A DNA stretch of 41,026 nucleotides, taken from Chlorobiaceae bacterium. GTDB taxonomy: Bacteria > Bacteroidota > Chlorobiia > Chlorobiales > Chlorobiaceae. Where the stretch lies: contig JAAXWX010000017.1 of the NCBI GenBank assembly GCA_013334755.1, positions 1 through 41,026 on the forward strand, given 5' to 3'. Positions 5,424-34,285 of this stretch are shown here, one piece after another (the first letter of the stretch is position 1; each line of letters starts with the position of its first letter). The translations under genes were made by a program, and so were the position numbers. A model generated the notes under the pieces. It was given only the letters and a program-made list of their open reading frames with translations, was not told the origin of the DNA and searched no databases.

Positions 5424-6473
5424 TCAAACGTTTATCTGTTGACGATCCAGCATGGTATTGAAGTTTTTAGCCTTGCGTCCCTCCCAGCTGCGTTTGTGAT
5501 AGGCATAGCCGGCAATCAGTGGCAAAGCAATGGTTGCTTCAGCAAAGACCATCTGTTCGTGAACGGTATCAACCTTGCCCCATGAGCTAGCCTCCTTGAG
5601 GGTTGAACCCGACAACGCTCCATCACGCTCATCAGCAACAGTGATCTGTACGGCATAGGTATGCATGGAGACATCGTCGTGACCGAGAACCTCTGCGGCA
5701 ACCACAATATCCTGGGTAAAGTTTTTCGGTACACCACCGCCAATCATGAAAATACCTGTCTTGTCATTCTCGATCTTGATTCTGGTCAGTTCTCGAAAAT
5801 CCTTGACAGAATCTATTGAAACATGTTTTTCGGGATTATTCCACTGGTGGTGAACCAGGCCAAATCCGGCGGAGCAGTCTGAAAAGGCTGGACAGAATAT
5901 CGGTACACCCTTCTCGTAAGCCTTGTAGACAATGGAATTTCTGTCGAGGTTATTCGCCTCTATATATTTAGCCATCTCCACAATAAATTCGCGCGAAGAG
6001 TATGCCCCGGGTTCCATGGCGTTGGCAATAATTGCTGTTGTATCATCACAGACCCGAAGATCATCCTCGTCAATATAGGTATCGTAAATACGATCAATAT
6101 GGAGCTCCCTGAGAATGGCATCATCCATAAACTGGGTACCCTTGTAGTGACGGAATCCAAGTGCTTCAAAAAAATCCTGATCAACAATATTTGCACCGGT
6201 GGAAACAATGGCATCAACCATATTGTTGTCAATCATGTCAATAATGATTTGCTTCAACCCTGCACTGATCAATGAACCTGCAAGGGTGAGAATAACGGCG
6301 CACTCCTTGTCCTGCTGCATGAGATCAACAATCGATGCTGCTCTTGACAGATTGCGTGCCTGAAAAGCGGTTTCTCCCATCTGGTCAATGAGAGGAACAA
6401 TATTCAGTTGTTTAATATCAATATGGCAAACCGGCGCGCTCAGTAACTCCTCTTTTGTGAATTCTGACTGCAT
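5424..6473 (-). CDS. Deoxyhypusine-synthase-like protein
   Basis: This 349-residue protein belongs to the deoxyhypusine synthase superfamily, NAD-dependent enzymes that move an aminobutyl group from spermidine to a lysine or an amine. The NAD-binding and active-site regions are recognisable: TLAGSLISAG (63-72), FCPAFSDCSAGF (193-204), IGGGVPKNF (244-252) and the catalytic-lysine segment SSWGKV with Lys300. The protein modified by true deoxyhypusine synthase, eIF5A, belongs to archaea and eukaryotes, so in a bacterium a polyamine product such as homospermidine is more likely; this is inference. A GGGAG ribosome binding site precedes the ATG. The gene starts about 40 bp downstream of the SRP RNA and is followed by the aldolase gene. 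Confidence 0.88.
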   Translation of the reverse strand: MQSEFTKEELLSAPVCHIDIKQLNIVPLIDQMGETAFQARNLSRAASIVDLMQQDKECAVILTLAGSLISAGLKQIIIDMIDNNMVDAIVSTGANIVDQDFFEALGFRHYKGTQFMDDAILRELHIDRIYDTYIDEDDLRVCDDTTAIIANAMEPGAYSSREFIVEMAKYIEANNLDRNSIVYKAYEKGVPIFCPAFSDCSAGFGLVHHQWNNPEKHVSIDSVKDFRELTRIKIENDKTGIFMIGGGVPKNFTQDIVVAAEVLGHDDVSMHTYAVQITVADERDGALSGSTLKEASSWGKVDTVHEQMVFAEATIALPLIAGYAYHKRSWEGRKAKNFNTMLDRQQINV

Positions 6474-6831: not shown

Positions 6832-7878
6832 ATGGCAACACAGCGAATTTTAAGCGGGATGCGCCCTACCGGCAAACTCCATCTCGGTCATTACACCGGC
6901 GCCCTTGAAAGCTGGGTTGAACAGCAGAATCAGCTTGATGAAAAGGGCTCAAGGATCTATGAAACCTGCTTTCTCATTGCAGATTATCACAATCTGACAA
7001 CCTCTCTTGATACCAGCGAAATCTATACAAATTCGCTTGACATGCTGATCGACTGGCTTGCAGCAGGCATAGATCCGGAAAAAAGTCCGGTTTTCCGCCA
7101 GTCGCAGATCAAAGAACATGCTGAGCTGTTTCTGATCTTTGCCATGCTGATCACCTCATCGCGCCTTGAAAGAAACCCGACTTTGAAGGAACAGATTCGC
7201 GATCTGAATATGGATTCACTGATATATGGCCATCTGGGCTACCCTGTGCTGCAGGCTGCCGATATTCTTCTCTATAAAGGAAACGTTGTCCCGGTAGGAG
7301 AAGACCAGATCCCTCATGTAGAAATTACCCGTGAAATTGCACGTAAATTCAACAATCACTATCCTCATCCTCTTCGGGGAGAGGTCTTTGCCGAACCTGA
7401 ACCAAAAATTACGAAATTCTCGCGCCTGTTAGGCCTTGACGGAAAGGCAAAGATGTCAAAGTCTCTTGGTAACACGATTCTCCTGGCAGACGGCCCTGAG
7501 GAGGTCTTGAAAAAAATGCGCACTGCTGTAACGGATACAGAAAAAATCAGGAAAAATGATCCGGGACATCCCGAAGTCTGCACGGTATTCAGTTACCATG
7601 GCAAATTTGCCCCTAAGGAACAGCTCGCCAGCATTGAGAAAGATTGCCGAACAGGCTCGCTGGGCTGCGTGGACTGCAAAAAACTCTGTGCAGCAAATAT
7701 TTCGACGGAACTTGCTCCCCTGATTGAAAAACGCCGCTATTATGAGATGCACATGGAGCTGGTAAAAGAGATTCTTCTTGAAGGCGAAGCCAAGGCAAAA
7801 GTCATTGCATGCCATACCATGCAGGAGGTGAGAACTGCCATGAAGCTTGGCGAAACAAACTGTTGTAACAACCTTTAA
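6832..7878 (+). CDS. trpS: Tryptophanyl-tRNA synthetase with iron-sulfur-type cysteine motif
   Basis: This 348-residue class I aminoacyl-tRNA synthetase charges tRNA-Trp. The ATP-binding motifs are clear: MRPTGKLHLGHYTGAL, with HLGH at 17-20, and KMSKS at 207-211. Tryptophan-site segments IADYHNLTT (49-57) and VGEDQIPHVEITRE (155-168) are also typical. Four cysteines at 250, 272, 279 and 282 (spacing 21, 6 and 2 residues) lie in the anticodon-binding part and resemble the [4Fe-4S] motif described in Thermotoga maritima TrpRS. It is the first gene of a plus-strand trio with the HAD phosphatase (5-bp gap) and argS. The start is the first ATG that gives a normal family N-terminus. Confidence 0.96.
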   Translation: MATQRILSGMRPTGKLHLGHYTGALESWVEQQNQLDEKGSRIYETCFLIADYHNLTTSLDTSEIYTNSLDMLIDWLAAGIDPEKSPVFRQSQIKEHAELFLIFAMLITSSRLERNPTLKEQIRDLNMDSLIYGHLGYPVLQAADILLYKGNVVPVGEDQIPHVEITREIARKFNNHYPHPLRGEVFAEPEPKITKFSRLLGLDGKAKMSKSLGNTILLADGPEEVLKKMRTAVTDTEKIRKNDPGHPEVCTVFSYHGKFAPKEQLASIEKDCRTGSLGCVDCKKLCAANISTELAPLIEKRRYYEMHMELVKEILLEGEAKAKVIACHTMQEVRTAMKLGETNCCNNL

Positions 7879-7883
7879 GCCCG

Positions 7884-8585
7884 ATGCTGAACGACCAGAA
7901 ACACGCCTTTATTTTTGACATGGACGGAGTGCTTACAGATAATATGCGATTCCATGCCGATTCATGGGTAGAGCTCTTCAGTGATTTCGGCCTTCAGGGA
8001 CTTGACGCCGAACGTTACCTGGTAGAAACTGCCGGCATGAAAGGTCTTGATGTTCTCCGTTACTTCCTTGACCCGCAGATCAGTGAGACTGAAGCTGAGA
8101 GACTTACCGAGCTCAAGGATTTTCTTTACAGGGTCTTGTCGCGCCATCTTATCAAACCGATGCCCGGGCTTGAGGCATTTCTTGATACTGCCGGAGAGCA
8201 AGGAGTCCGACTTGGAATCGGCACCGGCGCCGGACAGAGAAATATCGACTACGTCCTCGGCATCCTGAACATGGCAAATACTTTCCAGGCCATTGTGGAT
8301 CCTTCCCAGGTGCGTCGCGGCAAACCTGAACCTGATATTTTTTTGCGCGCCGCCACTCTCCTCGAAGTACCTCCTTCAGCCTGTATTGTATTCGAGGACG
8401 CACTCCCCGGCGTTGAAGCCGCCCGGAAGGCCGGCATGCAGTGCGTTGCTGTAACAACAACCAACAGCGCCGATGCATTCAGCCAATTCGATAATGTACT
8501 GCAGGTCATCGGCGATTTTACCCTTCTTTGTCCTGCAGATCTCCTGAGAAAGCTCAATGAGAAGCAACCCATGACCCTCTTATAA
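7884..8585 (+). CDS. HAD-superfamily hydrolase (beta-phosphoglucomutase/phosphatase-like)
   Basis: This 233-residue HAD hydrolase is of the subfamily IA type with a helical cap. Motif I is [12 protein letters not shown], with nucleophile Asp12 and acid/base Asp14; motif II is the GIGTGA segment near 112-117. The conserved lysine is in [11 protein letters not shown] and motif III is [17 protein letters not shown]. The RGKPxPD and EDSxxGxxAAxxAGM patterns are shared by beta-phosphoglucomutase-like and sugar-phosphate phosphatases, so the substrate is probably a small phosphorylated metabolite that cannot be named. It sits between trpS (5 bp) and argS (8 bp) and is almost certainly in the same transcript. 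No functional link to tRNA charging is evident. Confidence 0.88.
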
Positions 8586-8593: not shown

Positions 8594-10255
8594 ATGCATG
8601 AATTTTTTCGTCCTGTCATCCATAATGCCCTTTGCTCAGCAGGCATTACGACCGACAAACCCATCAACATTGAACAGCCCGCAGATAAAAAGTTCGGTGA
8701 TTTTTCTACAAACATAGCGCTGCTTGCTGCCAAAGAGTGCCGAAGAAACCCCCGCGAACTGGCTCAAACGGTTATCCCGCACTTGATTTTTCCTCCTGAC
8801 ACCATTGCAAGAATCGAGGTTGCGGGAGCTGGCTTCATCAACTTTTATCTTGCTCCTCTCTTTATCATGCAGTCAGTTGAAAAGGTGCTGATTGACAAAG
8901 ATGAATATGGAAAAGGAAACATCGGCCAGGGCAAAACAGCTATTGTGGAATATGTCAGTGCAAATCCAACCGGTCCGCTGACCATAGGACGTGGTCGGGG
9001 CGGCGTTCTTGGAGACTGCATTGCAAATCTCTTTGAAACCCAGGGCTATGAGGTCACCCGTGAATACTATTTCAATGATGCCGGACGGCAGATGCAGATT
9101 CTCGGAGAATCCGTCCAGCTTCGTTATCTGGAACGCTGCGGCAAGGCAATAGAATTCCCATCCACCCATTACCAGGGTGGGTATATCGGGGAAATTGCTG
9201 AAAACATATACAGCAAACAGGGCAGCTCCCTTTCTGAATACAGTGATGATGTACAGTTTTTCAAAAAGGAAGCAGAAGAGATTATTTTTGCATCAATACG
9301 CAAGACCCTTGAACGCCTCAGCATCCGGCATGACTCATTTTTCAATGAACATACGCTCTACACTCCTGATGAAACAAGTATTACCGCCAACCAGAGAGTG
9401 ATTGACGAACTCAGGAAAAAAGGATTCATTACCGAATACGATGGTGCGACCTGGTTTCAAACGACAATGCTCGGACAGGAAAAGGATAAGGTACTTATCA
9501 AATCCTCGGGTGAACCAAGCTACCGTCTGCCTGATATTGCCTATCATATAACAAAGTTTGAGCGCGGCTTCGACATGATCGTCAATGTTTTCGGTGCTGA
9601 TCATATCGATGAATATCCTGACGTACTTGAAGCACTGAACATTCTCGGTTATGATACCCAGAGGATCAAGGTCGCCATCAACCAGTTTGTGACCACGACT
9701 GTTGACGGACAAACCCTTAAAATGTCAACAAGAAAAGGCAATGCTGATCTGCTTGACGACCTGATTGATGATGTCGGAGCAGATGCTACCCGACTTTTTT
9801 TCATCATGCGCAGCAAGGATTCACACCTGAACTTCGATGTGGAGCTGGCTAAAAAACAGTCAAAGGACAATCCGGTGTTCTATCTGCAGTACGCCCATGC
9901 AAGAATCTGCAGCCTTTTGCGTATGGCCCAGCAAGAAATCGGATTTGACCCGGCCTCCAGTTCAGATCACCACCTGCTGCAACAGCTCAGCTCTCCGACA
10001 GAGCTGCAGCTTGGATTTGCCCTGCTTGATTATCCTGATATGATAAAAACAAGCTTGCGCCTTCTTGAGCCGCAAAAAATGGTTGAATACCTGCATTCTC
10101 TGGCTGAACTATTTCACCGGTTCTACCAGGAATGTCCCATTCTCAAGGCGGAACCGGACATTGCCAGAGCAAGACTCTTTCTTTCACTGGCAACACGCCA
10201 GGTGCTGCGCAACGGATTCAGGATTCTCGGTGTTTCAGCACCTGAGTCGATGTAA
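8594..10255 (+). CDS. argS: Arginyl-tRNA synthetase
   Basis: This 553-residue class I synthetase has normal length for bacterial ArgRS. The N-terminal additional domain has the typical [10 protein letters not shown] (34-43). The catalytic core begins with [12 protein letters not shown] (118-129), continues with [10 protein letters not shown] (158-167) and [11 protein letters not shown] (333-343), and has a KMSKS-type loop KMSTRKGN (376-383). A C-terminal anticodon-binding helical domain (DALR type, about 430-553) ends the protein. The HIGH motif reads TIGR (130-133) where most relatives have HIGH or HVGH. It is the third gene of the trpS-HAD-argS operon, and its last 38 bp overlap the convergent nadD. 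Confidence 0.96.
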
Positions 10256-16600: not shown

Positions 16601-16640
16601 AAAAGGGGACCTAACGTTGACGAAGATCCCCACTTTTTTT
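16601..16640. terminator. Bidirectional terminator between pgeF and the division cluster
   Basis: GGGGA (16605-16609) pairs with TCCCC (16627-16631). On the plus strand the stem is followed by seven T (16634-16640) after pgeF, and on the minus strand by TTTT after the CoA-transferase gene, so it can stop both convergent transcripts. The stem is short with a 17-nt loop that contains AACGTT. Confidence 0.6.
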
Positions 16641-17931
16641 ACATGCTTGTCCGGCCATAGGAGCCGTAAAGTTCATGGGCCTGACGACAGATTTCCTCAC
16701 GGAAATCAGGATGAGCAATGGTTGCAAGTGCTTCAGCCCTCTGTCTGAGATTTTTGCCATGCAGATTAACAATCCCGAACTCTGTAACCACATACTGCAC
16801 GTGCGCCCTTGTGGTGACAACTCCTGCACCCGGCTTAAGCTGCGGGACAATCCTTGAGAGCCCATTTTTTGTTGTTGACGGCAATGCAATAATCGGCTTG
16901 CCGCCTTCGGAGAGTGCTGCCCCCCGTATAAAGTCCATCTGCCCGCCGACTCCGGAATAATATTTCTGCCCGATCGAGTCAGCACATACCTGACCGGACA
17001 TATCAATTTCAAGAGCACTGTTAATTGCTGTCACCCTGGGATTTTTCCTGATTTCCCGAGTATCATTAACATAATCGGAAGGAAGCATTTCTACGAGTGG
17101 ATTATCATCAACAAAATCATAAAGCCGTCGAGTTCCAACCAGAAAACTTGCCACGATAATCTCTCGGTGACTTCTCTTTTTGCTGCCGTTGATCACCCCT
17201 TTTTCCACAAGGTCAATCACTCCGTCAGAAAACATTTCAGAATGAATACCTAAATCTCTGTGACCGGAAAGCGCAGCCAGGGTCGCATCTGGAATTGCCC
17301 CGATTCCCATCTGCAGTGTAGCTCCATCTTCAACAATGGATGCAATATGACGACCGATACGAATTTCGATATCGCCCATGACGTGACGAGGGGTTTCAGG
17401 AAGAGGATCATCCACATCCACCATTGCATGAATCTTGCTGATATGAAGCATTCCTTCCCCATGCGTGCGAGGCATGTTGGGGTTCACCTGGGCGATAACC
17501 AGCTTTGCGGACTGCACCGCCGCCAGAGTAGCATCGACTGAAACCCCGAGTGAACAATAACCATGACGGTCAGGTGGAGAAACGTGAACAAGGGCGACAT
17601 CAAGCGGGAGTATCCTGTTATAGAAAAATGAGGGGACATCGCTTAAAAAAACAGGGATAGCATCACCATCACCGTGTTGAACCGACTGGCGAACATTTCT
17701 GCCCACAAACAGGGCATTCAATCTAAAACTATCACGATATTCCGGTTTTGCATAGGGTGCATCTCCTTCGGTGTGCAGACTTACGATTTCAACATCTCTC
17801 AACTCACCTGAGCGCTGAACCATTGCTTCGATTAATCGCTGCGGAGTCGCTGCAGCTGTATGCAAAAAAACTCTGTCTCCTGATTTAATTCTGGCTACCG
17901 CATCTTCTGCGGCAAGCGTACTATAGTACAT
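16639..17931 (-). CDS. Acetyl-CoA hydrolase/transferase family protein (4-hydroxybutyrate or acetate CoA-transferase-like)
   Basis: This protein of about 430 residues is a family I CoA-transferase. It moves CoA between acyl-CoA and a free acid such as acetate, through a glutamyl-CoA intermediate. Recognisable parts are the start YYSTLAAEDAVARIKSGDRV, HVSPPDRHGYCSLG, LQMGIGAIPDA, and SEMFSDG, where Glu232 is the candidate catalytic residue. The ATG at 17931 is chosen because it has an AAGGA ribosome binding site and gives a family-like N-terminus; a longer frame to 18033 would run into ftsZ. It starts 31 bp after ftsZ and is the last gene before the terminator, so it is probably transcribed with the division genes. 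Substrate unknown. Confidence 0.88.
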   Translation of the reverse strand: MYYSTLAAEDAVARIKSGDRVFLHTAAATPQRLIEAMVQRSGELRDVEIVSLHTEGDAPYAKPEYRDSFRLNALFVGRNVRQSVQHGDGDAIPVFLSDVPSFFYNRILPLDVALVHVSPPDRHGYCSLGVSVDATLAAVQSAKLVIAQVNPNMPRTHGEGMLHISKIHAMVDVDDPLPETPRHVMGDIEIRIGRHIASIVEDGATLQMGIGAIPDATLAALSGHRDLGIHSEMFSDGVIDLVEKGVINGSKKRSHREIIVASFLVGTRRLYDFVDDNPLVEMLPSDYVNDTREIRKNPRVTAINSALEIDMSGQVCADSIGQKYYSGVGGQMDFIRGAALSEGGKPIIALPSTTKNGLSRIVPQLKPGAGVVTTRAHVQYVVTEFGIVNLHGKNLRQRAEALATIAHPDFREEICRQAHELYGSYGRTSM

Positions 17932-17962
17932 GAAATCCTTTATGTTTGTATAAAAAATAGCA

Positions 17963-19255
17963 TCATATCCCGTTATTTTTCCTTCGAAGATATGCCGGGG
18001 TATCTGATAAGCCTTTCTGAATTTTGTCTTCATGCTCTCCTCTACCGCCTATAATCGACGGATTGTAATCAGTATCATGCCCGGTATTTTTCTGGACACC
18101 CACTTCATGAGGATCATTAATTGATAGCTGTCTTCTGATGTAGGCAGGAATACGCAAATCCTCTTCCTGACGTTCAGGGTACAAGGATACGGTCGGTCGG
18201 ACAGATGAAGGAGCCTGTCCAAGCCTTATTCCCGGTACCGGAGCAATAAATTTCCGCACTGCCGGGACCTTTCCATCGTCCTGCGACTTTGGTTTGAATC
18301 CGGTTACAATAACGGTAACCCTTATTTCGCCTGAGACCTGGGGTTCGTCTACATAGCCGTTGATAATCTTGGCATCACTGCCAACCTGCTCCTCTATGTA
18401 GTTCATGGCATCAGACATGTCTCTCATGGTTACCTCGCCAGTAATGTTGACCAGCACACCTTTCGCGCCCTTTACTGACACGCCTTCAAGAAGAGGGCTG
18501 TTGAGAGCGTCAGATGAGGCTTTCAGTGCGCGGCGTTCACCGGCTGCAGCAGCAGAACCCATAACTGCATCGCCTGCTCCGGACATAATACTGCGAACGT
18601 CAGCAAAGTCTACATTGACATGCCCGTGACGGGTAATAATATCGGCAATGCCTTTTGCCGCCCTGTAAAGAACGTCGTTTGCCATGTTAAATGCTTCTGT
18701 AGCACTTACCCCCTCTTCAGCAATACTGAGGATCTTTTCATTTTCAACCAGAATAAGGGTGTCGATGTATTTACGCAGTTCAACAATACCGCCATCTGCA
18801 ATCTTCGCCTTGACCTGGCCTTCAAAGTTAAACGGCCTGGTTACAACACCGATAGTGAGGATACCCATATTCCTTGCAATTGAGGCAATCACTGGTGCTG
18901 CACCCGTCCCAGTGCCTTTTCCCATACCCGCAGCAATGAATACAAGATCCGCCCCCCGAAGCTGAGCAGCTATAATTTCCCGGTCATCTTCAGCTGCCTG
19001 ACGGCCTTTGGCAGGATCAGCTCCCGCGCCCAAACCGTTTGTCGCTTTCTTGCCAATCTGTACCCTTAAGGGTGCTTTCGAGTTCAGAAGCGCCTGTCGA
19101 TCAGTATTGAATACAATATATTCAACACCGCTGATTTTCCGGTCGATCATATTATTTACCGCATTGCCACCACAACCTCCAACGCCGACAACCCTTATGG
19201 TAACCCCTTTCCCCTGGTCGCTGTCAAAGAGACCGGGATCCAACTCAAATGCCAT
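17963..19255 (-). CDS. ftsZ: Cell division protein FtsZ (tubulin-like GTPase)
   Basis: This 430-residue tubulin homologue polymerises into the Z ring. The N-terminal GTPase has [13 protein letters not shown] (24-36), the tubulin-signature loop GMGKGTGTG (110-118) and the T7 synergy loop NVDFADV (214-220). After residue 325 a variable linker follows. Two peptides resemble the conserved C-terminal partner-binding motif: [12 protein letters not shown] (365-376) and [10 protein letters not shown] (417-426) at the very end. Most FtsZ proteins have one such motif and a GGGTGTG signature, so both features are odd. A GGGGAG ribosome binding site precedes the ATG, 45 bp after ftsA. Confidence 0.97.
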
Positions 19256-19300
19256 TTTATCAGTTCTCCCCTTTAAAAGGCTCTTAATTGTTCTCTCTGA

Positions 19301-20602
19301 TCATAGATTATCCCAGAATTTTTTCATGCGATCCACAATTTTTTTACCGGCCGGCCCGGGCTCCTGTGCCTGGGGCTCTTCGCGAGCGGCTTGAGATGCA
19401 TCTGCAGGAAGCACCTCAGGTGTCGAAGCAAAACTGTGATCTACTGAAAGATTGTTCTGAAATGCATGGGCAACAAGACCCATGACGGTTGCGTACATGG
19501 GATTGTTAACGGAGCCCTTTATGCCTCCAGATACCCCTTCCGGGTAACCTATACGAACATCGAGGCCAAAAACATCATGAGCAAGCTCTTCGGTACCCGG
19601 CAGGAGTGAACCTCCTCCAGTAATAATTGCACCTGCATTAAGATATTCATAATAACCAGACCGCCGAACAGAATCCCTCACAAGCTCTAAAATCTCCATC
19701 ATGCGGGCTTCAATGATCATCGTCAGCGAACTCTTTGGAACGGATTTTTGCGTTCGCCCTTCAATACCTTCGATAAGTAGATCCTCATCCTCACCGCTAA
19801 GCTTGCTGTATGCACAGCCATGTTTTATTTTCAGCTCTTCTGCCACCTCATAAAGAGCTCTAACACCATGGGCAACATCATGAGTAACATCGTTAGCAGC
19901 CACCTTGATAACTTCTGAGTAGCGGATTGCACCATCAATATAGATCGCGACCTCTGTAGTTCCTCCACCGATATCAATCACAACCACACCGCTTTTCTTC
20001 TCACGTTCTTTCATGACAGCCATACCCGAAGCTACCGGCTCAAAGGTAACTGCACTGATCTCCAGCCCGGCCTTCTCGACACACTGCTTGATATTACGAA
20101 TCTTTGTCCTCAATCCGACAACAATATAGGCGCTGCCTCGCATGGTCGTCCCGGCCATTCCTATCGGATCAAGAAGTCCTTCCTGATCATCAACAATGAA
20201 TTCCTGGGGAATAACATGAATAATTTCATGATCAATATCAAGATACCGGATATTTGTCTTGGCCTTTTCCAGAAAACGCTTCACATCAGAATCGTTGACA
20301 ATCCCTGTCTGGTTGATACTGATTTCAGAATTACTATGAATACAATGAACATGCGCTCCGGAAATACCGACATTTACGCCATGAATACGAATTGAAGACT
20401 CCCGTTCCGCATCCGCAACGGCAGCTTTGATAGCTGCTACTGTCTTGTTAATATTGACAACAGTTGCTCGCTGGAGACCATCGGAATTAGAACGTCCTTT
20501 TCCAAGTACGTTAAGCTTTCCTATTTCATCTTTTTCAGCAACAACCACACAAACTTTGGTTGTTCCAATATCAAGACCTACGGCGATATTGCTTTTCAGC
20601 AT
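19301..20602 (-). CDS. ftsA: Cell division protein FtsA
   Basis: This 433-residue actin-like ATPase anchors FtsZ filaments to the membrane. The phosphate-1 motif VGLDIGTTKVCVVV (8-21), the phosphate-2 region VVIDIGGGTTEVAIY and the adenosine motif AIITGGGSLLPG are clear, and the 1C domain typical of FtsA lies between them. The last residues KKIVDRMKKFWDNL form an amphipathic helix, the usual membrane-targeting tail, after a Pro/Ala/Glu-rich linker. It starts 18 bp after ftsQ and ends 45 bp before ftsZ, the standard order. The ribosome binding site is weak. Confidence 0.97.
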   Translation of the reverse strand: MLKSNIAVGLDIGTTKVCVVVAEKDEIGKLNVLGKGRSNSDGLQRATVVNINKTVAAIKAAVADAERESSIRIHGVNVGISGAHVHCIHSNSEISINQTGIVNDSDVKRFLEKAKTNIRYLDIDHEIIHVIPQEFIVDDQEGLLDPIGMAGTTMRGSAYIVVGLRTKIRNIKQCVEKAGLEISAVTFEPVASGMAVMKEREKKSGVVVIDIGGGTTEVAIYIDGAIRYSEVIKVAANDVTHDVAHGVRALYEVAEELKIKHGCAYSKLSGEDEDLLIEGIEGRTQKSVPKSSLTMIIEARMMEILELVRDSVRRSGYYEYLNAGAIITGGGSLLPGTEELAHDVFGLDVRIGYPEGVSGGIKGSVNNPMYATVMGLVAHAFQNNLSVDHSFASTPEVLPADASQAAREEPQAQEPGPAGKKIVDRMKKFWDNL

Positions 20603-20620
20603 TGTTCTATTCTTGCATGA

Positions 20621-21514
20621 TTATCTCGGAGAAATGCTCTGGGGGACCTCGGAAGATACGGAATCTCTGGTAAAAACCCTGTCTCTGAACCTAAGGTCCA
20701 CAGTCTCATAAGAGCTAAACCCTTTTTTGGAAACCACCTTTTGCCAGAATATCTCGAATTTTTTTAACTTTTCCTTGAAGTTCCCTTCATTACCGATAAT
20801 AAAACGGGTAGGGGCCTGTACAGAAATGCAATAGGTCGCGTTATTGCTTGCCAGATGAAGTTTGCGGATAAGCAGACTCGCATAATTGGTCTCTGAAAGA
20901 GCTTCCAGAAACTGCCTGATCAATTCGACATCACGCCTGTCAAGTTGTTGCAGTCCGTTACCCGCCACTTTCAATCGGGTTATTCCAGTAATTTCAAGCA
21001 GCTCCGGAAACCTCTCTGTCAATTCTTTTTTCCCGGGCAGAAGAAATCCTTCACGATCAATAAGCATATTCCTGCCAGCAATGACCGTGCCTGCAACGGG
21101 TTCACGCTCGAAAACCTTTACACGAATTATCCCATTCATCTCCTTGCTGATCTCTACATCCCTGAGATAGGGAATCAGCATAATCCTCTTTTTCAATTCT
21201 TTCGAATCGAGTTTCTGCATGTTACTGCCCTTCAGGGCAGTCATGCATGATAAAAGATCCTTGGTAGAAACAATCGAAGCTCCTTCTACAACAAAATCCC
21301 TGACACTCACCTCTTTTTTCCAATGTGACGCATAAAAAGCTAACACCACAAGAACAACAAGCAACATCAGAAAAATAAATCCCCGCAGAAACAAATTGCC
21401 TGTAACTGTCGGGGCAGTATAACCTTTTTCCTCTCCATCACCCCCCAATGGAGAACCCTGAGTACCGAGGTCCAGCAAATATCCAGGATGTTCCTGATAT
21501 TCAGAATCAGACAT
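20621..21514 (-). CDS. ftsQ: Cell division protein FtsQ/DivIB
   Basis: This 297-residue bitopic protein has a cytoplasmic N-terminus of about 43 residues and one membrane helix (about 44-65, LRGFIFLMLLVVLVVLAFYA region). A POTRA domain follows (SVRDFVVEGASIVSTKDLL through the REPVAGTV region, about 70-145), and then the FtsQ/DivIB beta domain. In the divisome FtsQ binds FtsB/FtsL and links the Z ring to septal synthesis. Identity is supported mainly by POTRA features and by its place directly before ftsA; primary sequence conservation is low in this family. It starts 58 bp after murC. Confidence 0.9.
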   Translation of the reverse strand: MSDSEYQEHPGYLLDLGTQGSPLGGDGEEKGYTAPTVTGNLFLRGFIFLMLLVVLVVLAFYASHWKKEVSVRDFVVEGASIVSTKDLLSCMTALKGSNMQKLDSKELKKRIMLIPYLRDVEISKEMNGIIRVKVFEREPVAGTVIAGRNMLIDREGFLLPGKKELTERFPELLEITGITRLKVAGNGLQQLDRRDVELIRQFLEALSETNYASLLIRKLHLASNNATYCISVQAPTRFIIGNEGNFKEKLKKFEIFWQKVVSKKGFSSYETVDLRFRDRVFTRDSVSSEVPQSISPR

Positions 21515-21572
21515 AAGAATACGCTTTTTCGAATCCGTTCATAACACCGCAATACTCAATGAGAATAGTCCA

Positions 21573-22982
21573 TTACTTTAACTTTGCTTGATCTCTCTCT
21601 CTGCAAACTTCGGCGACTCTTGAGGCAAGATGGGTAATATCTCCTGCACCCATAAAAAGAAGCATATTTCCATTGACTGAAAGCGCTGTGAGAGCTAAAA
21701 AAAGGCTTTCCATATCGGCAATAAATTCAACATGCTTGCCGCCAGCTTTCCGGACAGCTGCAGCCACCAACTCCCCATCCACACCCGGATAATCAACTGC
21801 CTTTTCACGGGCAGGATAAATATTGGCCACAAAAACAATATCAGCCCGTGAAAGTGCCCAGCCATACTCATGAGCAAATTCCCTTGTCCTGGAAAACAGA
21901 TGCGGCTGAAAAATTGCAACTACTTTTGATTCAAGCCATCCGCTTTTTGCCGCTCTTACAGTCGCCTTGACTTCTGAGGGATGGTGGGCATAATCGTCAA
22001 CAACCATAAGCCCGGCGCCATTATCATATTTCACCTGAAACCTTCTTCTCATGCCGCTGTAACGGCCAAGCCCTGCAATCAGCCGTTCAGGCATGATCCC
22101 CAGCTCAAGACCTGTTGAAAAAGCTGCCAGAGCATTGAGTACATTGTGGCGACCCGGAACATTGATGCAAACATCCCGATACTCTCTGCCATAGGCCTGG
22201 ATAGAAAAACTGGTCCGCTGTTTTTCAAGGACAACATCAGATGCCATAACATCTGCAGGCTCATCAATCCCGAAAGTCGTATAAAGACGGTTCATCGATG
22301 GAATGATCTTTCTGATCTCAGGCCAATCGACACAACAAATCACCCGCCCGTAAAACGGCACTTTGTTGGCAAAAGCAACGAACGCATGCTTCAACTCATC
22401 AAGTGTCCCATAGGTGTCCATATGCTCGGATTCAAGACTGTTGACAACGGCAATCGTGGGAGTAAGCTTTAAAAAGGCACGATCATATTCGTCGGCTTCA
22501 ATAACCATAAATTTTCCCTCACCAACCACAGTACTGCCTTTCAGATAATCAGAGATTCCGCCAATCATGACTGTCGGAGATTCTCCTGACTCAATAAGCA
22601 TGGTGGCAATCATGGCTGTGGTGGTAGTCTTGCCATGCGTTCCGGCAATGCATATACCGTATTTATATCGCATAAGCTCGCCCAACATCTCATCCCGCTT
22701 GATGACAGGAATGCCCGCGTTTTTAGCTGTTATGATTTCAATATTTTCTTCCGGCCTGACAGCTGAAGAGTAGACAACAACATCGCATGATTCAACCTGC
22801 TCCGCCCGATGTCCCCTGTAAATAATTGCCCCGAGTTCAGCAAGTTTGTCAGTCACTTCGCTTGCCGAAAGGTCGGAACCTGTGACGCCGAATCCTGACT
22901 TAAGGAGGAGTTCCGCTATAGCGCTCATCCCCGCACCGCCGATTCCTACAATATGAACGCTTTTTGTTTTTCCCAGTTCCAT
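21573..22982 (-). CDS. murC: UDP-N-acetylmuramate--L-alanine ligase
   Basis: This 469-residue Mur ligase adds L-alanine to UDP-MurNAc, the first step of stem-peptide assembly in the cytoplasm. The N-terminal [15 protein letters not shown] (13-27) binds UDP-MurNAc, [12 protein letters not shown] (114-125) is the ATP P-loop, and [15 protein letters not shown] marks the C-terminal domain. The length is normal. An excellent AAGGTGATTC spacer and ribosome binding site precedes the ATG, 12 bp after murG. murB and ddl, which often follow murC, are not present between murC and ftsQ. Confidence 0.97.
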
Positions 22983-22994
22983 GAATCACCTTGC

Positions 22995-24092
22995 TTAAAG
23001 TTTTTTTGTAAGCCCAATTATTCGCAGGGCAAGCTGACGGGCCGCATCAGGATATGCAAGCTGGCGGGATGCCGCGCCCATACCTCTGAGCTTATCTGCA
23101 TCACGCAGCAGCTCAAGAATGTTTTTGACCAATACCTGTTCCCCGAGATTATCATCCTCAACCTGAATAGCCGCACCGCTTGAAACCAGCGCACGGGCAT
23201 TATGGCGCTGATGATCACCGGTAGCGTATGGATATGGCACAAGAATCGCAGGCTTGCCAAGATTGGTCAGCTCTGCAATGGTTGAAGCTCCTGCCCTGCA
23301 CAGCACAAGATCAGCGGCACTGTAGGCGGCCCCCATGTTTTCGATATATGGAGCAATCCATAAAGACGGTGAAGCTGGAACCTGCTTCTTCAGGCGATGA
23401 AAATCAAGCTCACCAGTCTGCCATATAAGGTTTGCCGAAGCTGTGATTTCTCCGACCCATTGAAGCACCGCATTGTTTATCGAACGAGCTCCCCGGCTCC
23501 CTCCGAACACAAGAAGCGTAGGGCGCTCTCCATACAAGCCAAAGCTTATCCTCGCCGTAGAAGAATCCTCCTGACAGAACGACCGCGCAGGATTTCCGGA
23601 GACAAAAACCATTGGTTTTTTTACAATAAATTTCCTTGCAGCTTCAAAAGAGAGATGCACTTCACTGGCCAGTAGTGAAAGTAGTTTTGTCGTTACTCCC
23701 GGAAATGCATTTTGCTCCTGAATAAGTGTTTTTTTTCGCATAAGCTGGGCAGCAAGAAGCAATGGAGCACTGACAAATCCGCCGGTACCGACAACAACAT
23801 CCGGAGTTTCCCGGACTATCAAGGCAAAGGCACGACCCAGAGCCGCAACAAAATCAGCAACCACACCAATATTGGCAACGATTTCTGCAGGCGACCATCC
23901 TCTTTTCAAACCTCTGACAGGAAGAAGATGCAACTGATAACCGAGTCTTGGAACTTCGGAAGCCTCAATACCTGAGGTTGTACCGACAAATGAAATACCT
24001 GCGTCTGGAACCAGCTTCCTGAGCTCTGCGGCCATGGCTATTGCCGGATATAAATGACCACCTGTTCCTCCTCCGGCAAACAATACTTTCAT
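22995..24092 (-). CDS. murG: UDP-GlcNAc:lipid I N-acetylglucosaminyltransferase
   Basis: This 365-residue GT-B glycosyltransferase converts lipid I to lipid II on the inner face of the membrane. The N-terminal glycine-rich loop [17 protein letters not shown] (5-21), the second [10 protein letters not shown] loop and the UDP-GlcNAc-binding segment [24 protein letters not shown] are all intact. The start codon overlaps the ftsW stop (ATGA) and has GGAAAGG immediately upstream, indicating translational coupling. The length fits the family. Confidence 0.97.
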
Positions 24093-25294
24093 CCTTTCCT
24101 CCCGTCAGTGACATCCGCCAGAACACCAGTTTCAGGAATCGTTTTCTTGTAACGTGATATGCTCATAAGAATACCGACCCCAAGTGAGTTAAACAGAAGA
24201 GCTGTACCTCCATAGCTGATGAAAGGAAGAGCAACACCGGTAGTAGGCAGCAGATGACAAGCGACAGCAATATTAACAAAAGCAAAAAGCGAAATGGCCA
24301 TCGTGATCCCGCATGCAACATATTTACCGAAATTATCCGGGGCGTGCTTGGCAATAATCAGACCGCAGACCAAAAATCCCGCAAAAAGAGCAATAACGGC
24401 GATAGCCCCGACAAAGCCATACTCTTCTCCGATAACAACAAAGACAAAATCATTATAAGAGAGTGGCAAATAGAGCTCTCTTTGCTTGCTGGCCCCGATA
24501 CCAAGACCAAACAACCCCCCGTTACCCAAACCTATCAATGCCTGCAGCACCTGGTAGCTCAGCCCTTTTTCATCACCGCTTATAAAAGAAAGCAAACGTT
24601 TAACCCTGTATGGAGCTGCAATAGCAAAAACCGCCGCAATAGGTATCAGAAGCGATACAGTAGCTATGAGATGACGAACACTGACTCCCCCTATAAACAT
24701 AAGGATAAACCCTATTACGGCAATAAGAGATGCTGTACTGAAATTCGGTTCAAGGGCAACAAGGGAAACAACAGTCATCAGAAGGATCAGCAGGGGATAA
24801 TAGGAATTATTGAGATCCTTTATATATGCCTGTTTTTCGCTGATGAGTCTTGAAAAATGAAAGATGACCGCATATTTGGCAAAGTCTGATACCTGAAATT
24901 TAAGAGGTCCGAAGCCTATCCAGCGCGCCGCTCCAGAAATAAGCCCGACCGCTTTCATGACAAGAAGAAGGGTCAGGAGCACAATGCTGGTAAAAAGAAT
25001 GATTTTACTGGTCTTCCAGAATACATGATAGTCGAGCTGGGCAACCAGAAGCACCGTAACAATCCCAAGTAATGAAAAAATAAGCTGACGCCACAAAAAA
25101 TACTCGGAACTGGAATACTTTGTTACAGCCCACCCCGCGCCGCTGCTGTAGACAACAACAATGCCTATGCACATAAGGATGGCAACAATGAGTACCATCA
25201 ACTTTCCGGCAAATCCCTCTCTTCCTGAAGAGTGTGAAAGCTCATTATGCACGGTAACTCCTGCGGAAGCAGGGGGGTAATCGGTATTCATCAT
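24089..25294 (-). CDS. ftsW: SEDS-family septal peptidoglycan polymerase FtsW
   Basis: This 401-residue polytopic protein of the SEDS family polymerises lipid II at the septum together with FtsI. About ten membrane helices follow an N-terminal cytoplasmic tail of about 25 residues. Conserved parts are the W-I-x-F-G-P region [19 protein letters not shown], the YHVL-type loop [34 protein letters not shown], quoted here in part only as [11 protein letters not shown], and the C-terminal [15 protein letters not shown]. The acidic residue before [10 protein letters not shown] is also conserved. Position between murD and murG with 4-bp overlaps supports FtsW rather than RodA. Confidence 0.96.
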
Positions 25295-26685
25295 GATTGT
25301 AATTCATGAACGCATTGCTTAAACTGCAAACCGCGATCCTCAAAGTTCTTGAACATATCAAAACTTGCGCACCCGGGTGAAAAAAGCACACTCTGGCCAT
25401 GTCTGGCAGCATTACGTGCCAGCAAAACAGCTTCTTCAAGTGAACCCGCAGCTTTAACAGTCACAATGCCCTGAAAGACAGAAACTATTTTTTCCTGCGA
25501 TTCTCCGAGAGCAATGAGTAAAGATACCTTTTCCCGTACCAGCCCGGCAATAGTAACATAATCGTTCCCTTTATCCCGTCCCCCCGCAATAAGCACCGCC
25601 GTACCGGGAAGCGCTTCAAGCGCCTGACGCATGGCATTGATATTTGTCGCTTTTGAATCATTGATCCAGTCAACACCGTTGACAGTCCTGACATATTCCT
25701 GGCGGTGTTCAACACCCCTGAACTCCCTGAGCGATACACGAACAACGTCATTATCAATACCCAATGACCGTGCAACAGCAACAGCAGCAAGTACGTTAGA
25801 GATATTGTGGCTGCCTCTGAAACTGTTTTTCAGAAACTCTGATGTCTTGATAACTTGGTCATACCCCACAGCAGAATTTACAACAATGGTGTCACCCTCC
25901 AGAACAACGCTGCCGGAGTAACTCTCTCCACCAGGAACAGGCCCCATACCAAACGGGATGATCCTGAACGGAAACCGGTCAGTTGCGCCAGTAAAATGCG
26001 CCCTGAGCAAGGGGTCATCCCAATTATAGATCAGCGTATCCTCCGCACTCTGGTTCTCATAAATCCTGAACTTCGCTGCTGCATACCTGTGAATGTCTCC
26101 CTCATAACGATCAAGATGATCTGGTGTAATATTCGTGATGACCGCAACGTCTGGCCGGAATGTGGGGGAACGCTCCAACTGATAACTGCTCAACTCGACA
26201 ACAGCAACATCCCCGGCATTCATATCACCTACCATCAAAGAAAACGGTACACCAATATTACCGACACTGAATGCCCTGTATCCATGCCGAAGACCATCCT
26301 CTTCACAGATACGATGAACAATGGTCGACGTTGTTGTTTTTCCATCGGTTCCGGTAATGCCGACAATCCTTGCATTACAGAAAAGGCTGGCAATCTCGAT
26401 CTCGCTATAAAGTGGAATTCCCTTTTCCTGCATGGTTATCACAACCTCAGCATGAGGCGGAATTCCAGGACTGATCACACAAAAATCAGCATCATATATG
26501 TCCTCTGAATGACCATCCTGTTCAAAGGAAATCTCCATTTCATGAAGACGCAACACATCCTCCGTCCCAATCCTGCCAAGTTCGCTGACCATTACTTTCG
26601 CACCCTTCCGGCAAAGCAGTTCCGCCGCTGCAATTCCACTTTTTCCTGCACCGATGACCGATACCCTTTTTCCCTTTAGATTCAT
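25291..26685 (-). CDS. murD: UDP-N-acetylmuramoyl-L-alanine--D-glutamate ligase
   Basis: This 464-residue Mur ligase adds D-glutamate. [15 protein letters not shown] (10-24) binds the UDP substrate, GTDGKTTTS (112-120) is the ATP loop, [14 protein letters not shown] lies in the central domain, and [16 protein letters not shown] is the MurD-type nucleotide-binding segment. The length is normal. It follows mraY by 5 bp with an AGGAG ribosome binding site inside the junction, and its stop overlaps the ftsW start. Confidence 0.97.
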
Positions 26686-26690
26686 TGCTC

Positions 26691-27797
26691 CTATCTGAGT
26701 TTTAAGGTCATAAGACTGGCAAGAAAAAAAAGTATGGTCAAAATCCAGAACCGGATCACAATTTTTTGTTCAGCCCATCCTTTAAGCTGAAAATGGTGAT
26801 GAAGAGGAGCCATCAAAAAAATCCTCTGGCCTTGGCCAAACCTCATTTTCGTGTATTTGAAATAGAGTACCTGGAGAGATACTGAGAGTGCTTCAAGAAA
26901 AAATATACCTGCAATCAATGGAAGAAGCAGTTCCTGCTTGATCAAAAGAGCTATAACTGCAATAGCGCTGCCGAGAGCAAGGGAGCCGGTATCACCCATG
27001 ATAATCTCAGCCGGATTGGAGTTGAACCACAGGAAACCAACACATGCCGTCACTATTGCCATACATACCACAGCAATCTCACCTCCTCCGGGAATAAAAG
27101 GAATATTCAGGTATAGAGCATAGACCGCATTCCCGGCCAGATAGGAAAAGCCTCCAAGGCCCATGACCACAATTGCAGAGCTTCCAGCAGCAAGACCATC
27201 AAGCCCATCAGTCAGATTGACCGCGTTCGATACGGCGGTGATAATAAAAATGACGATCGGAATGTAAAAATAACCGTAATCAATAGTCAGATACTTAAAA
27301 AAAGGAACACTTGTTGTAGACAGGAGCACGGAGAAAGCAGGATCATACCAGGTATAGATTCCAATCACCAACCCAAGGGAAACTTGTCCGATAAGCTTGT
27401 AACGAGCCGAAAGTCCCCCTTTTATTTTAAGCACAACCTTTCGGTAGTCATCAATGAAGCCAATGATCCCCATCCAGAGAATGGCCAGCATGATCAGCCA
27501 GACATGTGGATCATTGAATTTCGACCAAAGCAGCACTGAAACCTCAATTGAAAAAATAATGAGCAACCCTCCCATGGTAGGAAGCTCCTTTTTCTTTTTA
27601 TGCTCGGGAGGAGCTTCATCCTTGATCGGTTCAATAAACCGGGATTTCAGGTATTTGATAAATCCAGGACCAGCAAACAAAGCAATAAGCAGTGCTGTAA
27701 TCGCTGCGGCGCTTGCCCTGAAGGTGAGATACTCAATTAGATGGAGCCCCGGAATGTCAAATACATCGTCGATGTACTTCAGCAGATAATAAAGCAT
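26691..27797 (-). CDS. mraY: Phospho-N-acetylmuramoyl-pentapeptide transferase
   Basis: This 368-residue integral membrane enzyme with about ten helices attaches phospho-MurNAc-pentapeptide to undecaprenyl phosphate to make lipid I. The signature segments are [12 protein letters not shown], the aspartate pair in [33 protein letters not shown] and the histidine cluster [12 protein letters not shown]. All known catalytic Asp and His positions appear present. It starts 3 bp after murF with an AGGG ribosome binding site and precedes murD by 5 bp. Confidence 0.97.
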
Positions 27798-27800
27798 ACC

Positions 27801-29240
27801 CTATTCTTTTCTGGTTATGGTTCTTGCATTAATGAGCGCATCGACAACCTGCTCAAGCTTCATTCCCCTTGATCCTTTGAAAAGCACGGTATCTCCTTCC
27901 TGCAATACTGTCAGCAATGCCCCGAGAAGTTTTTCACGGCTCTCGAAATGACCCCGGCAAAGTGATGGAGCCTCATGCCCAAGAAGCCGGGCCTTGTCAC
28001 CAAAGGTAAAAAGTATGTCAACTGAACTTTGCTGAATATAGCGGCCAATTGCCTCATGTTCAACATCTTCCGCTAATCCGAGCTCAAGCATATCCCCAAG
28101 AACAGCAACTCTTTTCCCGGCGCAAGGAATATCGCAAAGGGCATCAATTGCCAGGCGCATCGAGTCCGAATTAGCATTGTAGGTATCATTAAGGATTCTG
28201 AGACCGCAGGTGTCCAGTACCTCAAGCCGCTTCCACCCCGGTGCAGGAGTAAGATGTTCAAGCCCATCTCTGATCTGACAAAGTGAGAGGCCAAAAAAGT
28301 GTCCTACTGCTGCTGCTGCAAGAGCATTAATCACATTGTGCTTTCCGGTAAAATTCAGTGTAACCGCTTCTGTCCCGGCTGCTGAACATAACAGAAAAGA
28401 GAGCCTGCCTTCCCTGTTGAGTAAAATCTCCCGAGCCCAGCAGGTATGATCGGGTTTTTTCTGAATTCCGTAAGTAACCTTCCCTGCCAGCCCCTCTCCT
28501 GCGAGAGTGAGCCAGGGATCATCTGTATTGACAAAAGCAGTCCCTCCGCTCTTGCTGAGATAGTCGAAAAGCTGGGTTTCCGCCGCGGCAACCCCATCAA
28601 GGTCCAGAAGAAACTCCAGATGCTCATGGCCTATATTCGTCAAAAGAGCATGAGTCGGCCTGGCAATAGCTGCAAGCAATGTCATCTCTCCTGGATGATT
28701 GATACCCATCTCGACTACTGCGATATCAGTATCGTGCCTGAGCTGTAAAAGAGTAAGGGGAACGCCGAGATGGTTGTTCCTGTTACCCTGACTCATTTGA
28801 ACCTTAAAAGCGGTACCAAGTACTGAAGCAACCATCTCCTTTGTTGTGGTTTTTCCATTGCTGCCGCCGATAGCCACAACAGGAATTGAAAATTTGTTCC
28901 GGTAGATCGTAGAAAGCTGCTGCATGCCTGCAACGGGATCATCCGTGACAATAAACCCTTTTCCGCCGGGCGGCTCTGCAGATCCTTGCGCTTCATACCA
29001 CTGACGGCTTACCATTGCCCATGATGCACCATTTTCAAACACAGTCCCTACAAAGCAATGTCCGTCTATATTTTCACCCTTCAGCGCAATGAAAATCTCT
29101 CCTCCCGCCACCTCTCTTGAATCAATGACCACTACAGGCGAAGCAATCTCCCGGGGCGGGAACTCAGCCCCGGCGACAACAACCTCCCCAACGCACCGGA
29201 AATCATCCACCGTCAGCACGCCTTTCGCATTTATTTGCAC
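27801..29240 (-). CDS. murF: UDP-N-acetylmuramoyl-tripeptide--D-alanyl-D-alanine ligase
   Basis: This 479-residue Mur ligase adds D-Ala-D-Ala to finish the UDP-MurNAc-pentapeptide. The ATP loop GSNGKTTTKEM (126-136), the SQGNRNNHLGVPLTLL segment typical of MurF, and the later ILNDTYNANSDSMRLAI are clear. The start is GTG at 29240 with a strong AGGAG upstream, lying inside the murE 3' end (10-bp overlap). The D-Ala-D-Ala ligase gene ddl is not in the window. Confidence 0.96.
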   Translation of the reverse strand: MQINAKGVLTVDDFRCVGEVVVAGAEFPPREIASPVVVIDSREVAGGEIFIALKGENIDGHCFVGTVFENGASWAMVSRQWYEAQGSAEPPGGKGFIVTDDPVAGMQQLSTIYRNKFSIPVVAIGGSNGKTTTKEMVASVLGTAFKVQMSQGNRNNHLGVPLTLLQLRHDTDIAVVEMGINHPGEMTLLAAIARPTHALLTNIGHEHLEFLLDLDGVAAAETQLFDYLSKSGGTAFVNTDDPWLTLAGEGLAGKVTYGIQKKPDHTCWAREILLNREGRLSFLLCSAAGTEAVTLNFTGKHNVINALAAAAVGHFFGLSLCQIRDGLEHLTPAPGWKRLEVLDTCGLRILNDTYNANSDSMRLAIDALCDIPCAGKRVAVLGDMLELGLAEDVEHEAIGRYIQQSSVDILFTFGDKARLLGHEAPSLCRGHFESREKLLGALLTVLQEGDTVLFKGSRGMKLEQVVDALINARTITRKE

Positions 29241-30796
29241 AAACTCTCCTTTTCCGGATATCCGGAAGCACTTTCCTGCATATATGTTTTTATAAGCTCC
29301 TGATCCGAAAAAAAATGTTTCTGACCTGCAATCTCTTGATACTTTTCATGACCTTTTCCTGCAACGAGAAGCACATCTCCCTGTTTGAGCATCAAAACCG
29401 CCCTCCTTATAGCTTCAGCCCGATCGCTGATCCTTGTATAATGGCCCCCGGTAATACCTTGTTCAATTTCATCAAGAATAACTTCAGGCTCTTCGTGTCG
29501 GGGATTGTCAGAGGTAATGATAACTTCATCAGCTAAAAGCGATGCAATACGGCCCATTTCAGATCGCTTTGTCCTGTCTCTGTTGCCACCGCACCCAAAA
29601 ACAACAATAAGACGGGAACCATCAGGCTTGAGCCCTCGCAACGCTTCAAGCACCTTGAAAAGCGCATCGGGAGTATGAGCATAATCAACAAAAGCTGACC
29701 ATCCCTTGCGTCCATCAACAATTCTTTCCATACGCCCGTCAACCGAGGAAACCGCAGACAGGGAATGGCAGATCTCTTCCGGAGTAAGGCCCATACCAGT
29801 ACCAATAGCGGCTGCTTCAAGTACGTTCATAACATTAAAGACTCCCGGAAGACTGACCCGCATAGTCATCCGCGAATCAGGGAAATGAAGGTCAACAGTA
29901 CTTGAATCAATGGTACTCTGAAGAATGTCGGCCATAAAACGCCTGCCGCACGCAATGATGGAATGAACCCCTTGCTGCAACGTACAACAGTATATTTTAT
30001 CATGCGCAAGCCCTGCTGCCATCTGTATGGCATAGGGATCATCAATATTTATAACAGCAAACCCTTCCGGGGAGAGCTGGCCAAACAGCTTCTGTTTGGC
30101 TGAAGCGTATTCCTGCATGGTTTGATGAAAATCGAGATGCTCCCGGGTCAGATTGGTGAAAAGTGCTGCATGAAACCTGATGCCATATACCCTCTGCAGT
30201 ACAAGTGCATGAGAAGAGACCTCCATAACGACCGCCCGGCATCCCGCTTCCAGCATCTGACTGAAAAGAGCATGCAGACCATGAGCCTCGGGAGTGGTAC
30301 GATCAAGCGGTATTTCCCGCTCAGCAATCCGGCAAAGATTGGTCCCGATATAACCTGTAGATATACCATTAGCATTGAGCATTGCCATGATCAATTTTGC
30401 AGTTGTGGTTTTACCGTTGGTACCGGTGACCCCGATAATCTGCAGGCGGTCGGAAGCCCTTCCATAAAAAATTCGAGCCACTTCGGCCAGTGCCTTACGT
30501 GCATCAGATACTTTAATATACAGGCAGGATGAGTCGGTATCAGGCGGGAATTCTTCGCAGATAACTGCTACTGCCCCACGCTCAACTGCATTTTGGATAA
30601 ACTGGTGGCCGTCCAGGCAATAGCCTCTTACCGCAACAAAAAGTGTACCATCATGAACCTCACGAGAATCACTGGTAACCATCTGTATCACACCACCGAT
30701 ACTTGATGTTCCATCAAGCGCCAAATAATTAATCTCCTTGAGCAACTCCTCCAGTTGCACCATCTCTCTGCCGACGCGCTCTATTGATGCAGCCAT
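29231..30796 (-). CDS. murE: UDP-N-acetylmuramoyl-tripeptide synthetase (meso-diaminopimelate-adding)
   Basis: This 521-residue Mur ligase adds the third stem-peptide residue. The ATP loop GTNGKTTTAK (125-134), EVSSHAL (192-198) and FVDYAHTPDAL (369-379) are typical. DNPR at 430-433 is the motif seen in enzymes that use meso-diaminopimelate rather than lysine, so the wall should be of the Gram-negative DAP type. The ATG at 30796 lies within the end of ftsI (16-bp overlap) with AAGGGAA upstream as ribosome binding site. A second ATG at residue 12 is possible but less well spaced. Confidence 0.97.
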   Translation of the reverse strand: MAASIERVGREMVQLEELLKEINYLALDGTSSIGGVIQMVTSDSREVHDGTLFVAVRGYCLDGHQFIQNAVERGAVAVICEEFPPDTDSSCLYIKVSDARKALAEVARIFYGRASDRLQIIGVTGTNGKTTTAKLIMAMLNANGISTGYIGTNLCRIAEREIPLDRTTPEAHGLHALFSQMLEAGCRAVVMEVSSHALVLQRVYGIRFHAALFTNLTREHLDFHQTMQEYASAKQKLFGQLSPEGFAVINIDDPYAIQMAAGLAHDKIYCCTLQQGVHSIIACGRRFMADILQSTIDSSTVDLHFPDSRMTMRVSLPGVFNVMNVLEAAAIGTGMGLTPEEICHSLSAVSSVDGRMERIVDGRKGWSAFVDYAHTPDALFKVLEALRGLKPDGSRLIVVFGCGGNRDRTKRSEMGRIASLLADEVIITSDNPRHEEPEVILDEIEQGITGGHYTRISDRAEAIRRAVLMLKQGDVLLVAGKGHEKYQEIAGQKHFFSDQELIKTYMQESASGYPEKESLCK

Positions 30797-32832: not shown

Positions 32833-32863
32833 GATCAATCCCGTTCATTTAACGACAAATCAT

Positions 32864-34280: not shown

Positions 34281-34285
34281 GGCTT

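Follow-up and report, generated by a model that had tools for sequence, protein, structure and literature searches.

A predicted Thermotoga-type iron-sulfur site in the tryptophanyl-tRNA synthetase of a Chlorobiaceae bacterium and its distribution among relatives

Results and Discussion

The trpS gene and its four-cysteine motif

The window analyzed here is a whole stretch of 41,026 nucleotides of a Chlorobiaceae bacterium (GenBank assembly GCA_013334755.1, contig JAAXWX010000017.1, positions 1 to 41,026 of the forward strand). It contains a trpS gene for a tryptophanyl-tRNA synthetase (TrpRS) in which four cysteine residues form a putative [4Fe-4S] site resembling that of Thermotoga maritima TrpRS. 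The gene and the site have the following features.

6832..7878, + strand: trpS, TrpRS of 348 amino acid residues, Thermotoga type with a predicted [4Fe-4S] site (TIGR00233; best structure match 2g36)
6880..6891, + strand: class I signature HLGH, residues 17-20 (from the sequence)
7450..7464, + strand: class I signature KMSKS, residues 207-211 (from the sequence)
7579..7581, + strand: codon of Cys250, putative cluster ligand 1 (T. maritima Cys236, by alignment)
7645..7647, + strand: codon of Cys272, putative cluster ligand 2 (T. maritima Cys259, by alignment)
7666..7668, + strand: codon of Cys279, putative cluster ligand 3 (T. maritima Cys266, by alignment)
7675..7677, + strand: codon of Cys282, putative cluster ligand 4 (T. 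maritima Cys269, by alignment)

The protein has the HxGH and KMSKS signatures of a bacterial class I TrpRS and scores 279 bits with TIGR00233, whose cut-off is 176.75. It is the single TIGR00233 match in the whole host genome (2.11 Mb, 103 contigs, completeness 97.28). When the window TrpRS was used as a query, the second match elsewhere in the host genome was weak and partial (E 3.2e-5, residues 171-235). The window trpS gene is the sole TrpRS gene found in the host.

The window TrpRS has nine cysteine residues at positions 46, 250, 272, 279, 282, 286, 327, 344, and 345. Four of them constitute the motif C250-x21-C272-x6-C279-x2-C282, which spans exactly 7579-7677; both the coordinates and the spacing given in a preliminary description of this DNA were exact. 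The pattern C-x(20-24)-C-x6-C-x2-C occurs only once across the six frames of the window, namely in trpS, and random placement of nine cysteines in the protein produced it in 61 of 200,000 trials. The column-by-column alignment of the putative ligands is stronger evidence than this chance-placement count. C250, C272, C279, and C282 align one-to-one with C236, C259, C266, and C269, the crystallographic [4Fe-4S] ligands of T. maritima TrpRS (2g36), and the alignment has its sole gap in the loop that joins ligand 1 to ligand 2.

The motif had been regarded as one residue off the Thermotoga motif. The difference is real with respect to T. maritima itself (x21 versus x22), but it is no deviation from the [4Fe-4S] TrpRS family, whose motif is C-x(21-24)-C-x6-C-x2-C in the available part of Han et al. 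(2010, PMC2954223). Thus, the x21 spacing is within the family. The spacing was also read in 80 named loci, which are the best 80 of 577 relatives and not a census; it is x20 in 65 of them, x21 in 14, and x22 in one. The idea of an off-motif spacing was rejected on the basis of the published range and these x20 relatives.

Structure match and model

Among solved structures, 2g36 is the best sequence match of the window TrpRS, both with the single protein (303 bits, E 1.9e-89) and with a 69-sequence profile (435 bits). An AlphaFold model made from a 69-sequence alignment (mean predicted local distance difference test score, pLDDT, 93.9; predicted template modeling score 0.90) replaced an earlier 13-sequence model with a pLDDT of 75.2 and a poor catalytic domain. 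The model has the overall fold of 2g36, on which it superposes with a Z score of 39.4 and a root-mean-square deviation (rmsd) of 1.5 Å over 320 residues at 50% identity, the lowest rmsd among the 50 matches listed. Two cluster-free structures gave slightly higher Z scores but a larger rmsd: 6ncr (41.1, 1.9 Å) and 1yi8 (39.9, 1.9 Å). Thus, the fold alone does not pick out the cluster family, while the ligands do. The C-terminal helices of the model comprise residues 251-259, 262-274, and 279-306.

The preliminary description had proposed a Thermotoga-type [4Fe-4S] site and had called for an alignment with the T. maritima protein TM0492. The proposal is borne out by the four matching ligands, the rank of 2g36 and the superposition, and in the alignment the four cysteines do fall on the four cluster ligands. 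The host TrpRS almost certainly carries a Thermotoga-type [4Fe-4S] cluster, as judged from its sequence, and would be loaded with it in vivo.

Ligand variants, Lys238, and Cys286

In the 80 named loci, the four ligand columns read CCCC in 76 cases, CCCH in two (L101 and L106), and CCCD in two (L107 and L111). The four variants are TrpRSs of KSB1, Eisenbacteria, and other bacteria, and may hold labile or three-cysteine clusters. Do the four cysteines bind zinc rather than iron in this lineage? Four-cysteine sites often bind zinc, and histidine, which is common at zinc sites, or aspartate is the fourth ligand in these 4 of 80 relatives. However, histidine and aspartate ligands occur at [4Fe-4S] sites too, the spacing and the alignment are the same as those of the crystallographic [4Fe-4S] site, and no zinc-binding homologue of the site was seen in the searches of this analysis. 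A zinc site is thus considered very unlikely.

Two further residues near the motif differ from those of T. maritima.

7543..7545, + strand: codon of Lys238, which takes the place of T. maritima Arg224 (ungapped alignment)
7687..7689, + strand: codon of Cys286, the fifth cysteine; Leu273 in T. maritima (alignment)

In one structure of T. maritima TrpRS (2g36), Arg224 contacts a cluster sulfur. An arginine at this position, which is perhaps not a defining feature, is replaced by Lys238 in the window TrpRS. The position, which by the alignment with Arg224 would face the cluster, is lysine in 76 and arginine in 4 of the 80 named relatives, so that a positive charge is kept. Arg240 was also considered as the counterpart of Arg224 and was rejected, since the count from KMSKS gives Lys238.

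The fifth cysteine was correctly noted in the preliminary description as being close to the motif. Position 286 is cysteine in all 65 Chlorobiaceae read, the window included, and in 64 of the 80 named loci. In 55 other genomes with a cluster-type TrpRS, it is cysteine in 47, alanine in 6, and isoleucine in 2. No pattern was found that would indicate compensation of a changed fourth ligand by C286: the two histidine variants (L101 and L106) have methionine at this position, while the aspartate variants have cysteine (L107) and leucine (L111).

Distribution of cluster-type and ordinary TrpRSs

The 13 best named relatives of the window TrpRS among the matches listed are 79-91% identical to it, and all belong to Chlorobiaceae, Chlorobium, or Chlorobiota. 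An initial set comprised 30 loci, drawn from 29 genomes (the window included), and the four cysteines are present in 27 of these loci. The other three were left out; they are an N-terminal piece from a split frame (L028, genome G027) and two ordinary enzymes (L029 and L030).

I then surveyed 296 genomes of the phylum that are at least 90% complete. A TrpRS was classed as the cluster type if its best E value to the window TrpRS was 1e-79 or lower, as tallied by eye. By this threshold, 121 of the 296 genomes, including the host genome, have a cluster-type TrpRS, and the next best match lies at E 2.0e-66 with 44% identity. The remaining 175 genomes were classed by score as ordinary. The four cysteines were found in 120 of 120 cluster-type TrpRSs read; G294, whose C-terminal half was not found, was left out. 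In contrast, none of nine ordinary TrpRSs read (G020, G023, G182, G238, G244, G047, G228, G280, and G170) has the four cysteines. That the cysteines are vestigial or present by chance, with no metal, is hardly credible in view of this conservation and of the rarity of the motif in the random placements.

In a tree of 25 cluster-type and nine ordinary TrpRSs, the cluster type groups together with a support of 0.90. Ordinary TrpRSs occur inside lineages that are otherwise of the cluster type, namely in family f3 (G020 and G023), which belongs to the order of the host, in f10 (G238), and in f35 (G182). The simplest reading of this pattern is that one TrpRS type may have been replaced by the other.

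Two irregular cases were observed. The trpS gene of G027 (L028 and L225) consists of two overlapping pieces in different frames, covering residues 3-229 and 227-342, which reflects either a frameshift or a faulty assembly; with the window TrpRS as the query, this genome showed no further TrpRS match. G021 has two near-identical cluster-type trpS genes (L023 and L031) on two short contigs, whose products are 66% and 65% identical to the window TrpRS, perhaps due to a strain mixture.

Comparison of tRNA-Trp genes

Is the cluster demanded by the tRNA? A tRNA-Trp gene was searched for in 30 genomes and identified in 29, with none in G062; L148, whose ends are shifted by one base, was left out of the comparison. 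All 29 tRNA-Trp genes have the anticodon CCA (ARAGORN). Across 74 bases, the host gene does not differ from those of four genomes with the cluster type (G001, G003, G005, and G014). When compared with genomes having an ordinary TrpRS, it is identical at 73 of 74 bases in G020 and at 71 of 74 in both G023 and G238. The host (G000) and all seven of these genomes share one anticodon stem-loop sequence, modifications being invisible in DNA. Since the tRNA-Trp gene is near-unchanged across the synthetase types, the tRNA sequence alone does not demand the cluster.

These data bear on a hypothesis of Han et al., in which the surface at the cluster would recognize a nucleotide modification in the anticodon loop of tRNA-Trp. 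In the available part of that paper (PMC2954223), C34 of the anticodon is modelled next to Cys266 of T. maritima TrpRS, and such a proximity to the cluster would suit a reader of a modified base. On the other hand, tRNA-Trp is nearly the same in organisms with and without the cluster, down to the identical anticodon stem-loops of G000, G020, G023, and G238. Moreover, TtcA (NF007972), one maker of 2-thiocytidine, gave no match above the cut-off in any of 14 genomes of both TrpRS types; the sub-cut-off matches to NF007972 are probably TilS-like. Recognition of a modification is therefore quite unlikely to be the purpose of the cluster.

Oxygen use and the cluster

It had been suggested in the preliminary description that the cluster couples tRNA-Trp charging to the redox or iron state in an anaerobe. 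To look at oxygen use, matches to PF00115, the haem-copper oxidase family (nitric oxide reductases included), were tallied by eye. They are present in 111 of the 121 cluster-type genomes (weak in G016 and G264) versus 172 of the 175 ordinary genomes. The 10 cluster-type genomes with no PF00115 match are all Chlorobiaceae; nine of them have a bd oxidase gene, while G290 lacks that match too. The host genome has a ccoN-like gene for a haem-copper oxidase subunit (C19:6555-7928, - strand), its score of 540 bits falling short of the cut-off (583). A bd oxidase match was not found in this Chlorobium-like genome.

Outside Chlorobiaceae, the four cysteines were read in 55 of 55 cluster-type genomes, and 51 of these have a full-length CtaD/CoxA (aa3-type oxidase) match with E values of 2.6e-170 or lower, 28 of them above the curated cut-off. 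The exceptions are G038 and G120 with no match and G231 and G253 with weak matches only. Conversely, G020, a genome of the same order with an ordinary TrpRS, has no PF00115 match, but a bd oxidase gene is present. The aa3-type oxidase genes in 51 of 55 genomes and the ordinary TrpRS of G020 argue that the predicted cluster does not track anaerobic life in this phylum, an oxidase gene being no proof of aerobic growth. Members of Thermochlorobacteriaceae are predicted to be aerobic photoheterotrophs in the available part of PMC3669762. As far as the consulted part of a study of anaerobe-specific iron-sulfur protein families goes (PMC5279795), the TrpRSs of aerobes are said to be without the cluster pattern. 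Such an absence from oxygen users does not hold in this phylum, and the present data disagree with that statement, with the caveat that they concern an oxidase gene alone.

A redox or iron sensor would work by lowering tRNA-Trp charging upon oxidation or loss of the cluster, which would slow translation under oxygen or iron starvation. Because TrpRS is single-copy, cluster damage would hit all Trp codons. The conserved extra cysteine C286 adjoins the site, and the available part of Han et al. (PMC2954223) suggests that a cluster, given what it costs the cell, is unlikely to serve structure only. However, the cluster is kept in the 51 genomes with an aa3-type oxidase gene and, more broadly, in those with a PF00115 match, the same-order genome G020 uses an ordinary TrpRS, and C286 is gone in 8 of the 55 non-Chlorobiaceae genomes while the four ligands are kept. 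In view of the aa3-type oxidase genes, the ccoN-like gene of the host, and the ordinary TrpRS of G020, the coupling to redox or iron state in an anaerobe is not supported, and I regard a sensor as unlikely.

A different role for C286 can also be imagined. In the clade of Chlorobia and Ignavibacteria, the conserved C286 lies one helical turn past C282 and might change places with a ligand or shield it. The cluster would then tolerate oxygen or would gate anticodon binding in response to redox state. Such a five-cysteine switch would explain the persistence of the cluster in lineages with aa3-type oxidases, but it is a long shot.

Proposed role of the cluster

It is probable, although far from assured, that the host enzyme is a homodimeric TrpRS with a [4Fe-4S] cluster on C250, C272, C279, and C282 that has a constitutive role in structure and anticodon docking, not in sensing. 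The cluster would be held by these cysteines in the helical anticodon-binding domain, as in T. maritima, and would tie three C-terminal helices together. It would also shape the surface next to C279, where the enzyme contacts C34 of the CCA anticodon, so that the intact holo-enzyme would be needed for efficient binding of tRNA-Trp. Two findings count for a constitutive role: lineages that carry aa3-type oxidase genes have kept the cluster type, and the tRNA-Trp genes are nearly the same with and without a cluster-type TrpRS. A structural and docking role rather than sensing is most likely.

Three points weigh against this interpretation. The four-cysteine site could hold zinc. In principle, tRNA-Trp charging can do without the cluster, since cluster-free TrpRSs read near-identical tRNA-Trp genes. 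It is also puzzling that a merely structural cluster is kept in oxygen-respiring lineages.

Other features of the window

Two genes follow trpS on the same strand.

7884..8585, + strand: HAD hydrolase, beta-phosphoglucomutase kind (TIGR02009, 193 bits, cut-off 153)
8594..10255, + strand: argS, arginyl-tRNA synthetase, next after the HAD hydrolase gene (TIGR00456, 397 bits, cut-off 262)

The gap between trpS and the HAD hydrolase gene is 5 bases, and judging from this spacing, the two genes are probably in one operon. A deoxyhypusine-synthase-like gene at 5424-6473 (- strand) matches 1,9-bis(guanidino)-5-aza-nonane synthase (NF002699, 591 bits, cut-off 500), which suggests a polyamine-type product in the host genome. 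An ordinary division and cell wall cluster occupies 16639-34364 (- strand) with ftsZ, ftsA, an ftsQ-like gene, a Mur ligase gene, FtsW/RodA, a penicillin-binding protein gene, and mraW (10 of the open reading frames scanned). The frames of ftsZ (17963-19255) and an acetyl-CoA hydrolase/transferase gene (16639-18033) share 71 bases on the same strand (17963-18033, - strand); the later gene of the two may start further in.

Comparison with known systems

According to the available part of Han et al. (2010, PMC2954223), T. maritima TrpRS was shown to contain the cluster, with iron detected by X-ray fluorescence, and to be active in charging; mass spectrometry data were also obtained. The window TrpRS and TM0492 (2g36) are alike in fold, in the four cysteine ligands, and in the CCA anticodon target. 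They differ in the spacing of ligands 1 and 2 (x21 in the window, x22 in TM0492), in Lys238 for Arg224, in Cys286 for Leu273, and in the host, which is a Chlorobiaceae member here. The lysine in place of Arg224, the conserved C286, the x20 spacing, and the histidine or aspartate as ligand 4 are not described in the available part of Han et al. (PMC2954223), its supplementary alignment lying outside that part. I found no experimental follow-up of the TrpRS cluster in the accessible portion of the open-access literature, and no paper on a Chlorobium iron-sulfur TrpRS in the open-access library searched.

Other TrpRSs resemble the window enzyme in fold or in the site. Chlamydia trachomatis TrpRS (6ncr) is the nearest by Foldseek and VIA score and gives 232 bits by sequence, but it has no cysteine at the four ligand columns of the sequence alignment. 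Deinococcus radiodurans TrpRS II (1yi8) has a close fold (Z 39.9). According to the available part of Han et al. (PMC2954223), T. maritima TrpRS was the only one in the PDB with the motif by 2010, and hence 1yi8 lacks it. TrpRS-A2 of candidate phyla radiation bacteria and archaea also has a predicted four-cysteine [4Fe-4S] site in the available part of PMC5370408, while the window TrpRS is of the bacterial type.

By its sequence, the window TrpRS is a member of the iron-sulfur TrpRS family already described, to which it adds one more case, and its relatives provide a natural experiment. Cluster-type and cluster-free TrpRSs are both in use within one order with 73 of 74 bases of tRNA-Trp identical, so the purpose of the cluster is testable side by side. 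The main interest is comparative: besides these near-identical tRNAs, it lies in the cluster kept in lineages with aa3-type oxidases, the clade-wide C286, the lysine for Arg224, and the histidine or aspartate as ligand 4 in 4 of the 80 named relatives.
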